A stretch of 64,000 bases of DNA from Modestobacter sp. VKM Ac-2984 (lineage in GTDB: Bacteria > Actinomycetota > Actinomycetes > Mycobacteriales > Geodermatophilaceae): contig NZ_JAPVBJ010000001.1 of assembly GCF_026967985.1 (NCBI RefSeq), forward strand, positions 310,001 through 374,000, read 5' to 3'. Each line of letters opens with the position of its first letter. The first letter of the stretch is position 1. Of the stretch, positions 35,647-40,309 are shown piece by piece. The translations under genes and the position numbers were made by a program. The notes under the pieces were generated by a model. That model had not been told where the DNA came from. It searched no databases and was given only the letters and a program-made list of their open reading frames with translations.

Positions 35647-38571
35647 TCAGCCCAGGACGAAGTTGACCAGCCGGCCCGGCACCGCGACCACCCGGCGCAC
35701 GGTCGCGCCGTCGAGGTAGCCGGCGATCCGCTCGTCCGCCCGGGCCGCCGCCTCCAACGCCGCGGCGTCCGCGTCGGCCGGCACGGCCACCTGCGCCCGG
35801 ACCTTGCCGTTGACCTGGACGGCGACCTGCACCGTCTCGTCCACCAGCCACGTCGGGTCGGCCACCGGGAAGGACGCCCAGGCGACGGACCCGGAGTGCC
35901 CCAGCCGGGCCCACAGCTCCTCGGCCAGGTGCGGGGCCAGCGGCGCGACCAGCAGCACCAGCGACTCGGCGACCGAGCGGGGCACCGGCGTCCCCGGCGG
36001 GCAGGCCGAGGTAAGGTGGTTGGTCAGCTCGGTGATCCGGGCGATGGCGATGTTGAACCGCAGGGTCGTCATGCCGTCGCGCACGGCCTCGATCGCGCGG
36101 TGCAGGGCGCGCGAGGTGTCGTCGTCCGGCTCGACGTCGGCGGCGCGCACCGCGCCGGACTCCTCGTCGACGACGACCCGCCAGACCCGCTGCAGCAGCC
36201 GCTGCGAACCGACCACGGCCTTGGTCTCCCACGGCCGGGACTGGTCCAGCGGCCCGGTCGACATCTCGTAGACCCGGAACGTGTCGGCCCCGTACTGCCC
36301 GATCATCTCGTCGGGGGTGACCATGTTCTTCAGGCTCTTACCGATCTTCCCGTACTCACGGTTGACCGGCTCGCCCTGGTAGAGGAACTGGCCGTCCTCC
36401 TCGACCACCTCGGCGGCCGGCACGTAGAAGCCGCGGGCGTCGGTGTAGGCGAAGGCGGAGATGTAGCCCTGGTTGACCAGCCGGCGGAACGGCTCCTCGC
36501 TGGACACGTGGCCCAGGTCGAACAGCACCTTGTGCCAGAACCGGGCGTACAGCAGGTGCAGCACCGCGTGCTCGACGCCGCCGACGTACAGGTCGACGCC
36601 GCCGACGTCGCCGGGCTCCCGCGGGCCCATCCAGTAGGCCTCCAGCTCCGGGTCGACGAAGCGCTCGTCGTTGCCCGGGTCCAGGTAGCGCAGGTAGTAC
36701 CAGCAGGAACCGGCCCAGTTCGGCATCGTGTTCGTCTCGCGGCGGTAGCGCCGCGGACCGTCGCCCAGGTCCAGCTCCACCGTCGTCCACTCGGTGGCCC
36801 GGGACAGCGGCGGCTCGGGCTGGGAGTCGGCGTCGTCGTCGGCGAAGGTCTTCGGTGAGTAGTCGTCGACGTCGGGCAGCAGCACCGGCAGCATCGACTC
36901 CGGGACGGCGACCGGCAGGTCGGCGTCCTCGCCGTCGACGGCGTAGACGACGGGGAACGGCTCGCCCCAGTAGCGCTGCCGGCTGAACAGCCAGTCCCGC
37001 AGCTTGTAGGTGGTCGTGGCCTCGCCGGCGCCGGTGGCGACCAGCCACTCGGTGACCTTGGCGATCGCGGCGGCCTTGTCCAGCCCGTCCAGGGACAGCT
37101 GTTCGTTCGAGCTGTTGATCATCGGCCCGGTGCCGGTGTACGCGCCGCCGTCGAAGTCGGCCGGCGGCTGCACGGTGCGGACGACGGGCAGCCCGAACTC
37201 ACTCGCGAAGTCCCAGTCGCGGGCGTCCTCACCCGGCACCGCCATGATCGCGCCGGTGCCGTAGCCGGTCAGCACGTAGTCGGCGATGAAGACCGGCAGG
37301 TGGCCCTGCGTCAGCGGGTTGCGCGCGGTGACGCCCAGCCAGACACCGGTCTTCTCCCGGCCCTCGGCCTGCCGGTCCAGCTCCGAGCGTCGGGAAGCCT
37401 GCCGCTGGTAGGCGGCGACCGCCTCGGCCGGCGTGTCCGCGCCGGCGGTCCAGCGCGGGTCGGTGCCCTCGGGCCACCGGTCGGCGGTCAGCGTGCCGAC
37501 CAGCGGGTGCTCGGGGGCCAGCACCAGGTACGTGGCGCCGAACAGGGTGTCCGGCCGGGTGGTGAAGACCTCGACGGTCTCGCCCGACACGGGGAACCGC
37601 ACCCGGGCGCCGGTCGAGCGGCCGATCCAGTTGCGCTGCATCTGCTTCAGCGAGTCCGACCAGTCCAGCCGGTCCAGGTCGGTCAGCAGCCGCTCGGCGT
37701 AGGAGGTGATCCGCATCATCCACTGGGTCAGCGGACGGCGGAACACCGGGAAGTTGCCCCGCTCGGACCGGCCGTCCGGGGTGACCTCCTCGTTGGACAG
37801 CACCGTGCCCAGCCCGGGGCACCAGTTCACCGGCGCCTCGCGCCGGTAGGCCAGCCGGTGCGCGTCGACGACCCGGCGGCGTTCCACGTCGGACAGCTCC
37901 GCCCAGCTACGGCCCTCGGGCAGCGTGCCCTCGGCCGGCTGCCGGGTGCCGGCGTCCAGCTCGGCGACCAGCTCGGGGATCGGCCGGGCCTTGCCGCGGC
38001 CGCCGTCGGCGGACTCGTCGAACCAGGCCTCGAAGATCTGCCGGAAGATCCACTGGGTCCACTTGTAGTAGCCCGGGTCGATCGTGGCGAAGGTGCGGCG
38101 GGTGTCGTGGTCGACGCCCAGCCGGCGCAGCTGCGCGCTGATCGCGGCGATGTTCGCCTCGGTGGTGACCCGCGGGTGCTGCCCGGTCTGCACGGCGAAC
38201 TGCTCGGCCGGCAGGCCGAAGGCGTCGTAGCCCATCGGGTGCAGCACGTTGTGGCCGTCCATCCGCAGGAAGCGGCTGGTGACGTCGGTGCCCAGGTAGC
38301 CCAGCGGGTGCCCGACGTGCAGCCCGGCACCCGAGGGGTACGGGAACATGTCCATCAGGAAGGCCTTGGGCCGGTCGGCCACCCGGTCGAAGCCCTCGCT
38401 CAGTCGGCCGACCGGGTTGGGCGTGTGGTACGTGCCCTCGGCCTCCCACCGGTCCTGCCAGGCGAGCTCGATCTGCTGCGCCAGCGCCGGGGTGTACCGG
38501 TGCGGCGGCACCCCGTCAGCGGTGGGCCCCTCGGTGGATGGCTCGGTGTTCTGGCTGGCCGTCTGGCTCAT
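35647..38571 (-). CDS. leuS: Leucyl-tRNA synthetase
   Basis: 974 residues from ATG 38571, GGGAG eight bases upstream; an in-frame GTG 15 bases earlier overlaps that site. Class Ia synthetase: HIGH-type [12 protein letters not shown], editing domain with the threonine-rich [12 protein letters not shown] and [18 protein letters not shown], and KMSKS-type KIGKSLKN. The catalytic, CP1 editing, anticodon-binding and C-terminal ([17 protein letters not shown]) domains are all present. Length is within the bacterial range with some insertions. Preceded by a leader peptide and terminator that suggest attenuation by leucyl-tRNA supply. Confidence 0.95.
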
Positions 38572-38609
38572 CGTCGGTGCTCCCACGGGAAGGATCTGGC
38601 GGCGGACAG

Positions 38610-38636
38610 AAAAAGACCCCTCACACAGGAGGGGTC
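38610..38636 (-). terminator. Intrinsic terminator inside the leuS leader
   Basis: On the minus strand GACCCCTC pairs with GAGGGGTC around a six-base loop and is followed at once by TTTTT, the only classic T-run terminator I found in the window. It lies 38 bases before the leuS ATG, so it can only serve attenuation of leuS. Confidence 0.8.
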
Positions 38637-38638
38637 GC

Positions 38639-38672
38639 CGTGCTGGTCTGGATCAGGTCAGATCAGCACGGC
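38639..38672 (-). promoter_or_regulatory. Leader hairpin overlapping the stop of the leuS leader peptide
   Basis: CCGTGCTG pairs with CAGCACGG, with an inner TCTG/CAGA helix, upstream of the terminator. It would be melted or occupied by a ribosome on the leader peptide and so could set the timing or the choice of downstream folding. Confidence 0.55.
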
Positions 38673-38698
38673 TGGGGAAGCAGGAGTCCGCCGGTCAC
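38663..38698 (-). CDS. leuS leader peptide MTGGLLLPQPC
   Basis: An 11-residue reading frame starting at GTG 38698 with codons CTC CTG CTT in a row, ending at TGA 38663. The -10 box TAGGAT ends seven bases upstream, so the transcript would begin at the peptide's start codon. Between this frame and leuS lie a hairpin and a T-run terminator. Three adjacent Leu codons in the only short frame before a leucyl-tRNA synthetase gene is the layout of ribosome-mediated attenuation: ribosome stalling when charged leucyl-tRNA is scarce would favour read-through. The antiterminator pairing is not resolved by eye. Confidence 0.7.
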   Translation of the reverse strand: MTGGLLLPQPC

Positions 38699-38705
38699 GG
38701 AACCG

Positions 38706-38711
38706 ATCCTA
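38706..38711 (-). promoter_or_regulatory. -10 box TAGGAT of the leuS leader
   Basis: Ends seven bases before GTG 38698 of the leader peptide; no clear -35 at 16-18 bp. Confidence 0.6.
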
Positions 38712-38740
38712 GCGCGCCGCCACGGCCCCCCAGCTCGACG

Positions 38741-39080
38741 GCGGGGTCCTCCAGGCCGTAGCCTGCAGTGGCTCGACTGCGGACGGGCGAGGAGATCCAG
38801 CGGGGACGGCCCCGGCGGGACGACCGCTGCCCGCACGCACCGGGACGTCGAGGTCCACCGGGACTCAGCAGCGCCGCTCGGCACGCGGCAGCGCGACCGG
38901 AGGACCAGCCCCGGTGCAGGCCGGGTGCACCGCCGCCCCGAACCGGTGCAGTGCCGCACCTGGACGCACCTGGACGCACCGCAGCAGGACGCACCGCACT
39001 GCCCCGCTGGCGGCCAGCCGAGGTCACATCCGTCGCCGGCCGGTCGCCGCGCACACGCACTGGTCGAGCCGGACCGACGG
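38741..39080 (+). other. Gene-poor stretch upstream of the CDP-glycerol transferase gene
   Basis: About 340 bases with no convincing gene. It contains a 10-bp tandem repeat (TGGACGCACC twice plus a partial copy, 38956-38980) and related GGACGCACCG words, and should hold the promoter for the plus-strand pair. No TANNNT-start geometry is seen here, consistent with the strong ribosome site at 39083 instead. Confidence 0.5.
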
Positions 39081-39095
39081 AAGAGGAGTGAGTGC

Positions 39096-39185
39096 ATGAC
39101 AGAACGCCCAGGCCCGCAGCGGGCCACGAGGCGCACCCGATGCCGGGTGATCGCCCCCTCCTCCATCCGGGGCCGACGACGGTGA
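39096..39185 (+). CDS. Possible 29-residue upstream reading frame
   Basis: Starts at ATG 39096 with a strong GAGGAG seven bases upstream and ends TGA 39183-39185, overlapping the GTG of the next gene as GTGA. The peptide MTERPGPQRATRRTRC... is Arg-rich (10 of 29). The excellent ribosome site has no other start at the right distance, so the frame is probably translated and couples to the glycerophosphotransferase gene. No homolog recognised; the alternative is that the site serves GTG 39092 of a longer transferase frame, three bases away and therefore poorly spaced. Confidence 0.4.
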   Translation: MTERPGPQRATRRTRCRVIAPSSIRGRRR

Positions 39186-40309
39186 AGGTCGTCTTCAACA
39201 GCTTCGGTGGCCGCTACAACGACAACCCGCGGGCCGTCTACGAGGCCCTCGTCGCGCGCGGCACCGAGATGGACGCCGTCTGGCTGGCCCGCCCCGAGCT
39301 GCGGGGCGACTTCCCGGCCGGGGTGCACACCGAGGAGCACTGGGGCCCCGGCGCCCGGGCGGCCCTGGAGTCCGCCGACGTCATCGTCTCCAACGACGGC
39401 CTGTCCCGGGAGTGGGACAAGCAGCCGACGACGACCTACCTGCAGACCTGGCACGGCACGCCGCTCAAGCGGCTGCACCGGGACGCGGTCTGGGCGCCGG
39501 AAGGCCGCCTGGAGATGGTGATGCGGGACATCGCCCGCTGGGACCACCTGCTCTCCCCCAACGCGGCGAGCACACCGCACCTGCGCAGCGCCTTCGGTTT
39601 CGACGGGCCGGTGCACGAGACCGGCTACCCGCGCAACGACGTGCTCAGTGCGCCGGACCGGGACCGCCGCCGCACCCGGGTCCGGGAGGCCCTCGGGATC
39701 GCCGAGCACGTGACGGCGGTGCTCTACGCGCCGACCTGGCGGGACGACCTGGTGCTCAGCGACGACGGACCGGCGCACTCCTTCCCCGTCGACCTGGGCG
39801 ACCTGGCGCGTGGCCTCGGACCGGACCACGTACTGCTGGTCCGGCTGCACGCGATGGTGTCCGACCAGCTGGTGGTCCGCGGCCCGGCGCCGCTCGTGGA
39901 CGTGTCCCGGCACCCCGACATCAGCGCGCTGTACCTGGCCGCCGACGTCCTGGTCACCGACTACTCCTCGACGATGTTCGACTTCGCCGTCACCGGGAAG
40001 CCGATCGTCCACTTCACCTACGACCTGGAGCACTACCGCGACGACCTGCGGGGCTTCTACTTCGACCTCGCCGAGATCGCCCCGGGCCCGCTGCTGACCA
40101 CCAGCGACCAGGTGCTGGCGGCCGTCGCCGGGCTCGGCGAGCGCCCATGGGAGCCCTCGGCGCGGTACAACCGGTTCCGGGAGCGCTTCTGCTCCCTGGA
40201 GGACGGTTCGGCCACCGAACGGGTGCTCCAGCTGTTCTTCCCCCCGGACGGCCACCCCGGCCGGCCGGGCACCACCCCCGTGCCCACGAACGACGAACCG
40301 AGGAGATGA
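39182..40309 (+). CDS. CDP-glycerol glycerophosphotransferase-like (TagB/TagF family)
   Basis: 375 residues from GTG 39182. The catalytic fold is GT-B-like: TYLQTWHGTPLKRLHRD carries the first His, ETGYPRNDVL follows, and the conserved VLVTDYSSTMFDFAVTGKPIVHFTYD and YRDDLRGFYFD complete the family pattern near residues 255-300. Members polymerise or prime poly(glycerol phosphate) in teichoic acids and other anionic wall polymers. The partner nucleotidyltransferase gene begins three bases after this stop. Together they look like a small phosphopolyol glycopolymer module. No membrane segment; peripheral membrane action expected. Absent from the mycobacterial order. Confidence 0.88.
   Translation: MKVVFNSFGGRYNDNPRAVYEALVARGTEMDAVWLARPELRGDFPAGVHTEEHWGPGARAALESADVIVSNDGLSREWDKQPTTTYLQTWHGTPLKRLHRDAVWAPEGRLEMVMRDIARWDHLLSPNAASTPHLRSAFGFDGPVHETGYPRNDVLSAPDRDRRRTRVREALGIAEHVTAVLYAPTWRDDLVLSDDGPAHSFPVDLGDLARGLGPDHVLLVRLHAMVSDQLVVRGPAPLVDVSRHPDISALYLAADVLVTDYSSTMFDFAVTGKPIVHFTYDLEHYRDDLRGFYFDLAEIAPGPLLTTSDQVLAAVAGLGERPWEPSARYNRFRERFCSLEDGSATERVLQLFFPPDGHPGRPGTTPVPTNDEPRR

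Follow-up and report, generated by a model that had tools for sequence, protein, structure and literature searches.

The DNA upstream of leuS in Modestobacter sp. VKM Ac-2984 looks like a real and widely conserved leucine sensor, of the kind already predicted in Streptomyces rather than a novel type of system. It is best read as attenuation of leuS by a leucine leader peptide. We consider it probable that the leader attenuates transcription and so adjusts the production of LeuRS to how far tRNA-Leu is charged, with a hairpin (P1) as the proposed switch. This kind of attenuator is itself already known; what is new here is how widely it is distributed, that its two hairpins adjoin and that no conserved antiterminator was found.

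Organisation of the leader upstream of leuS

All parts of the leader lie on the minus strand of the window, the 64,000-nt stretch of DNA that was analysed. The gene that would be regulated, leuS (35647..38571, from the list of open reading frames), encodes leucine--tRNA ligase and matched TIGR00396 with 865.7 bits against a cut-off of 548.4. Upstream of it, a -10 element, TAGGAT (38706..38711), lies 7 nt ahead of the GTG start codon (38698-38696) of a short frame, so that a leaderless leader mRNA is expected. This frame (38663..38698), seen in the sequence and in aligned homologues, reads GTG ACC GGC GGA CTC CTG CTT CCC CAG CCG TGC TGA (38698-38663) and encodes MTGGLLLPQPC, with the control codons CTC CTG CTT (Leu Leu Leu) at 38678..38686. 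The leader stop codon lies inside the 5′ arm of P1 (38637..38672), a hairpin with 14-nt arms as scored by script and an 8-nt loop, for which folding, the script and covariation agree. Directly abutting P1 is the terminator hairpin, GACCCCTC-CTGTGT-GAGGGGTC (38615..38636), found by folding, by a terminator scan and by covariation, and it is followed by the T run TTTTT (38610..38614), which was seen in the sequence and in the terminator scan. The leuS ATG (38571-38569) comes 38 nt past the T run and is preceded by a probable Shine-Dalgarno (SD) sequence, GGGAG (38580..38584). The peptide with its three consecutive leucine codons, the 7-nt spacing from TAGGAT, the hairpin overlapping the peptide stop and the stem followed by TTTTT, all claimed in the first-pass annotation, were found on the minus strand as it had described them, with the small correction that the 38 nt to the leuS ATG are counted from the T run.

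Folding of 38600-38680, which covers P1, the terminator and short flanks, gave -39.6 kcal/mol (z -6.37), and none of 200 shuffled sequences did as well. A scan of 7 kb on both strands returned three terminator-like sites (shuffle mean 0.7), one of them nested in the leuS-leader terminator, which had the longest and most G+C-rich stem of all. The leader frame is formally the tail of a mechanical open frame of 530 aa (38663-40255, minus strand) that runs antisense through the divergent neighbour and is the only long minus-strand frame ending at the leader; what relatives share of this sequence begins with the start codon of the leader and the -10 ahead of it. The divergent neighbour itself (39092-40309, plus strand) resembles the teichoic acid glycerol-phosphate transferase TarF, with a score below the curated cut-off. 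Rfam gave no match in the leuS leader, and no T-box riboswitch was matched either between 36000 and 42000 of the window (E up to 5) or in 18 loci (E up to 0.5).

Conservation of the leader

A DNA search of the genus found the region in all 23 Modestobacter genomes. In the family Geodermatophilaceae the leuS start was located in 111 of 112 genomes, and at 86 of the 90 loci whose upstream regions were looked at the script recovered both P1 and the terminator together with a leader that carries tandem Leu codons, in line with the expectation that the leucine run and the terminator would be kept in close relatives. The four misses comprise one locus fetched without its upstream part (L178), one mis-scored by the script though the layout is visible (L054), and two further loci, L142 and L166. 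Both of the latter keep P1 and the terminator upstream of leuS; in L142 a frameshifted leader breaks the leucine run and in L166 the tandem leucines are replaced by L-E-L-F. Dinucleotide-shuffled upstream regions gave the full layout in 0 of 100 cases; 16 had some P1 plus terminator, and 1 also had a leader with a leucine run.

The layout was also found by script in 39 of the 59 named loci that were counted from a set of 80, the remaining 21 being from other phyla, judged by title, and left out. Five further named loci, from Kibdelosporangium, Lentzea, Amycolatopsis (two) and Pseudonocardia, matched the covariance model, and at E up to 1 there was no match at loci of Nocardia (two), Mycolicibacterium, Frankia, Microlunatus or three Actinomycetaceae-like records. 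A covariance model (R1) built from 31 diverse elements matched 103 of 150 genomes of the order and, in the class, 133 of the 296 genomes sampled, about half, in searches of more than 40 genomes for which stricter filters applied and weak matches were lost. The element, for which no Rfam family matches above threshold, widens a prediction made for two species to about half of the class genomes sampled. The 163 class genomes without a match under these filters include all 20 listed genomes of one group, f2; they count against the best explanation, as do the broken leucine runs of L142 and L166. In its own genome model R1 matched a single place, at leuS. Among the loci fetched from the R1 searches leuS lay downstream in 85 of 99: in 39 of 39 for L199-L237 and in 46 of 60 for L238-L297, which were hand-picked for diversity and for second or weak hits. 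The 14 without leuS were second or weak hits chosen deliberately, or single weak hits. One genome (G320) has two leuS-like genes, with an element ahead of each (L264, L265). A scan of viral contigs turned up distant leuS relatives and was left out of the results.

Leucine codons of the leader

The leucine codons of the leaders differ from those of the gene that follows. The 547 leader codons comprise 216 CTT, 171 CTC, 156 CTG, 3 TTG and 1 TTA, whereas the 1266 leucine codons in leuS coding fragments of the same loci comprise 1087 CTG, 115 CTC, 50 TTG, 11 CTT, 2 CTA and 1 TTA. The rare codon CTT therefore makes up 216/547 of the former and 11/1266 of the latter; leuS of the window itself uses CTG 75 times, CTC 3 times and CTT and TTG once each. 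Rare control codons are known from other attenuators. In addition, CT is conserved within the leucine run and the third codon position is variable, a pattern that a translated frame would produce.

Covariation and geometry of P1 and the terminator

Four doubtful rows (L071, L103, L105 and L123) were dropped before an alignment of 31 elements was made, in which 94.6% of the pair cells were standard and eight pairs had double changes. Double-change cells in P1 and the terminator numbered 24 against 5.6 in shuffles (0/500), and pairing fell to 38-55% when partner columns were slid by 1 to 3. The weakest measure, that of further pair types, gave 16 against 13.4 (22/500 shuffles). Among the 31 elements the four outermost P1 pairs and the terminator's CCCC/GGGG are nearly invariant and so are neutral on pairing, neither for nor against it. 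In a permutation test on 58 representatives less than 85% alike, P1 scored z -14.8 and the terminator z -15.5.

The spacings were taken from a non-redundant set of 178 elements, left from 198 after removal of L285, L286 and identical sequences. These had been selected for P1, a terminator (gap of 0 to 3 nt allowed, so that elements with wider gaps would have been missed), a tandem-Leu leader and, preferably, a -10 at 3-12 nt, so that only the spacings are informative and not the presence of the parts. The distance from the -10 (TANNNT) to the start codon was 6 nt in 114 and 7 nt in 64 of these selected elements, for which the script preferred 3-12 nt. The leaderless start proposed in the first-pass annotation hence fits the spacing in 178/178 of the selected elements, and the S. 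lividans homologue is reported to be leaderless (PMC8079986). The leucine run had three codons in 139 elements, four in 22 and two in 17; its last codon ended 5 nt ahead of P1 in 129/178, and the stop codon lay 7 nt into P1 in 137/178. The gap between P1 and the terminator was 0 in 167 elements by the penalised script. When gaps of 0 to 30 nt were allowed without penalty and each hairpin was placed by its own best score, the gap was 0 in 125, 1 in 36 and 2 in 14 (0 to 2 nt in 175/178), with one element each at 4, 5 and 8 nt. The P1 loop, by comparison, ranged from 3 to 47 nt. A conserved motif resembling TGTCC or TTTCC was also seen about 6-10 nt after the terminator stem, at a near-fixed offset across the 178 elements, where it would be transcribed only on read-through.

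How the leader might act

The leader mRNA would be translated from its first base. With ample Leu-tRNA, a ribosome arriving at the stop codon in the 5′ arm of P1 would hold P1 open, so that the terminator would form and transcription would end. With scarce Leu-tRNA, the ribosome would wait at CTC/CTG/CTT just before P1 and P1 would fold; the folded hairpin, its base touching that of the terminator, would hinder closing of the terminator inside RNA polymerase, and leuS would be transcribed. The folding of P1 would be under the control of the ribosome, and in 175/178 elements P1 lies 0 to 2 nt from the terminator; from these two points we infer an action by contact. In C. glutamicum ilvBNC, mutational data are reported to support adjoining antiterminator and terminator hairpins that share three bases, which provides a precedent for the arrangement of P1 and the terminator (PMC11857589).

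The edge of the ribosome lies 12 nt from its A site. Folding was modelled ahead of a ribosome with its edge at this distance, before the 3′ arm of the terminator is made. With the A site on the first leucine codon P1 was intact (base pairs 0.92), and it was fully open once the A site had reached the stop codon; with the A site on the last leucine codon the base of P1 was covered, which counts against the best explanation. The 5′ arm of the terminator was mostly free with the A site on the first leucine codon (mean paired 0.06 in the family and 0.16 outside it), so the fold alone does not prevent termination in starvation. When the A site was on the stop codon instead, the same arm was paired to a mean of 0.33 in the family and 0.39 outside, and values above 0.5 were reached by 0% of family and 27% of non-family sequences; taken alone, this favours antitermination in the wrong state, contrary to the best explanation. 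P1 and the terminator also coexist by thermodynamics alone, which again counts against it. The small fixed gap, together with the missing antiterminator, poses a testable question: how one hairpin could keep an intrinsic terminator from working when the two do not compete for bases.

The same layout ahead of ilvB and cimA

Eight of the 14 fetched model matches without leuS lie ahead of ilvB or cimA and have Ile/Val/Leu codons in the leader. The downstream gene is ilvB (acetolactate synthase) in L251, L262, L263, L268 and L272, and cimA (citramalate synthase) in L254, L271 and L273, at the same places as the family matches, the gene in L273 being cut by the contig and under the cut-off. The leaders at these genes include MFYGLLIIGRRAG, MHRSSIIIAGRAD, MRQDLLVPQGRAD, MRLIVVLWKRAG and MRTRILVVMQRAG; those of L254, L271 and L273 are rich in Ile codons and are followed by P1 and an adjoining terminator, as is, by resemblance, that of L287, whose gene resembles cimA in its sequence. 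Of the others, L267, with the leader ARILVLP, probably belongs to ilvB, an Ile-rich leader stands ahead of a gene with no assigned family in L266, and L260, L269 and L270 have no such leader and look like chance matches. Rfam gave no match at E up to 0.5 for the five ilvB-associated loci and only a sub-threshold sRNA match at L254 and L271. Our literature search on citramalate synthase with leader peptides and attenuation returned no description of a cimA leader.

When a strict -10 rule was applied in a scripted search, the layout turned up ahead of ilvB in 6/35 and ahead of cimA in 3/35 loci, in sets that include loci first found by the model (L346 and L268 are the same gene, as are L322 and L254). 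The ilvB gaps between P1 and the terminator were 0, 0, 0, 0, 4 and 11 nt, and those of 4 and 11 nt count against the best explanation. No such leader was found at ilvB or cimA in the genome of the window, which together with these low frequencies limits the claim to some genomes. Where the layout is present, the leader codons suit the pathway to which the downstream gene belongs, an argument for the codons being the sensor, and one layout with codons matched to several genes makes a clean comparative case. Tentatively, these elements may form a class of attenuators in Actinomycetes in which a ribosome-controlled P1 blocks termination by steric contact across 0 to 2 nt without any competing pairing, the same design serving with swapped codons for leuS and in some genomes for ilvB and cimA; we regard this generalisation as possible rather than likely.

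A competing antiterminator and other explanations

An antiterminator that competes with the terminator should covary with it, and so pairings of the P1 arms, the P1 loop and the leucine run with the terminator were tested. On the 58 representatives no covariation of the P1 3′ arm, P1 loop, P1 5′ arm or leucine run with the arms or loop of the terminator survived. Two candidates from outside the family faded in this way: the leucine run with the terminator 3′ arm (z -3.5) fell to -1.1 for all and -1.6 for non-family representatives, and the P1 5′ arm with the terminator loop and 3′ arm (z -2.2) went to +0.5 and -0.2, respectively. The P1 loop had no effect with either terminator arm in non-family representatives (z -0.1 and -0.2). 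A different pairing, of the leader start with the sequence that follows the T run, reached z -4.66 in the family, but the representatives gave -2.1 overall and +0.2 outside the family. Duplexes of the whole leader with this sequence were hardly stronger than those with shuffled sequences, at -19.1 against -18.7 in the family and -17.7 against -17.3 outside it, being better in 42/84 and 44/94 cases. Of the covarying terminator and antiterminator stems that the first-pass annotation had proposed to test for, the terminator was found, as was covariation in P1, and a conserved pairing of an antiterminator with the terminator was not. The classical attenuation layout it had described is supported as regards the tandem leucine codons, the terminator and their conservation, and is not supported as regards the competing antiterminator that such a layout requires.

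One rival reading is a classical three-segment attenuator. In it stalling would free the 3′ arm of P1 (GCACGG), which would form an antiterminator hairpin with CTGTGT in the terminator loop while the 3′ arm of the terminator is still to be transcribed, and a modelled ribosome with its A site on the last leucine codon, by covering the base of P1, would free that arm; moreover, antiterminators have been claimed for two Streptomyces species (PMC1262725). The GCACGG/CTGTGT hairpin of the window was computed at -6.6 kcal/mol, with a rank of 0.09 among loop shuffles, and a similar one in the commonest Streptomyces combination at -6.5, with a rank of 0.31. Over 81 distinct sequence combinations, however, the terminator loop was no better than its own shuffles (mean rank 0.508), the commonest combination (36/178, loop CTGCGT) mismatches GCACGG, and the P1 3′ arm with the terminator loop gave z +1.36 and +0.15 (+1.64 and +0.42 on representatives) in the same tests that gave -9 to -19 for P1 and -13 to -15 for the terminator, all of which makes this arrangement unlikely. 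Pause hairpins halt polymerase about 12 nt downstream. P1 might be one, holding polymerase in the terminator loop while a ribosome loads on the leaderless start, with the small gap setting the pause site; in examples counted by eye the distance from the end of P1 to a TGYG in the loop was 12 or 13 nt, and pausing at a leader hairpin has been proposed for C. glutamicum ilvBNC (PMC11857589). We think this improbable, as TGYG is absent from some diverged members (L245, L249 and L294, for example) and pausing alone leaves antitermination unexplained.

The terminator and leader could also exist without any regulation by leucine, or the terminator could simply end a short RNA, and swapping possible control codons at S. 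coelicolor ilvB is cited as having had no effect (PMC1262725). Tandem leucines with a varying third base, the use of rare CTT and the change of codon identity with the downstream gene make this very unlikely for leuS. We give as little credence to translational control like that of the leuA LEU element, described as pairing its leucine run with the SD (PMC1262725), in which the leucine run would pair with the leuS SD or another stretch of the read-through mRNA. The run with the SD was computed at about -9.2 kcal/mol, where shuffled SDs gave -7.6 to -7.8, but any SD pairs with CUCCU, and there was no covariation between the two (z +1.03 and -1.61; leuS start assigned in 114/178 elements). A point in favour is a weak covariation of the leucine run with the 22 nt downstream of the T run (z -2.3 for all representatives; z -3.25, p 0.001, for the 47 from outside the family, one of 24 tests). 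Against it, translational control would leave the conserved terminator without a role. Attenuation of transcription by the leucine leader, with P1 as the candidate antiterminator, remains the reading that we prefer.

Relation to known leader systems

Attenuators of leuS, in classical form, have been in the literature since 2005 as predictions for S. avermitilis and S. coelicolor (PMC1262725), and in S. lividans the peptide LeuL2 (MRAVRLLLSEPR) is reported to be leaderless by RNA-seq and to be followed by a hairpin and a U stretch (PMC8079986), so that leuS attenuation is already in print for Streptomyces and the novelty of the present case is low. The system is the same in its gene, its leucine leader (predicted to be leaderless here), its hairpin and its terminator with a U run, and one covariance model covers both; homology to the LeuL2 type is seen in a common alignment and in model R1, and the LeuL2 peptide itself occurs in L063 and other Streptomyces loci. 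The Geodermatophilaceae leaders differ in mostly having a GTG start and 11 aa, and in a shorter P1 loop (8 nt here). As far as the accounts in these sources go, the Streptomyces attenuator is known from prediction and RNA-seq, and we found no functional test of it in the literature searched; no paper was returned by searches for Term-seq data on leuS from Streptomyces or for mycobacterial uORFs of leuS, and the main text of a 50-genome ncRNA survey does not contain the term leuS (PMC11109978).

Trp/leu-type attenuators of Proteobacteria combine a leader peptide containing tandem control codons with an intrinsic terminator. The leuS leader shares both features with them and differs in that no conserved antiterminator was found, no SD is expected before a leaderless leader and a synthetase is the gene that would be regulated. 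The ilvBNC attenuator of C. glutamicum (ilvB-II motif), which has reported mutational and reporter support (PMC11857589, PMC10272879), is alike in its near-leaderless leader, adjoining hairpins and terminator (PMC11857589). It differs in its codons and gene and in the GCC trinucleotide that its antiterminator and terminator are said to share, whereas the bases flanking P1 in the leuS elements could extend P1 into the terminator in only 27/177.

The actinobacterial LEU element of leuA is described as a pseudoknot whose leucine run pairs with the SD (PMC1262725), and a typical terminator is said to be absent from it (PMC8079986). It has a leaderless leucine leader, as predicted for leuS, but the leuS leader has a terminator and its leucine run does not covary with the SD. 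A leader like the described LEU element is present elsewhere in the genome of the window, on the minus strand of locus L304, where the leaderless leader VRGSLLLISRGEALS lies upstream of a probable leuA, a frame of 591 aa with a weak match to the citramalate-synthase family.
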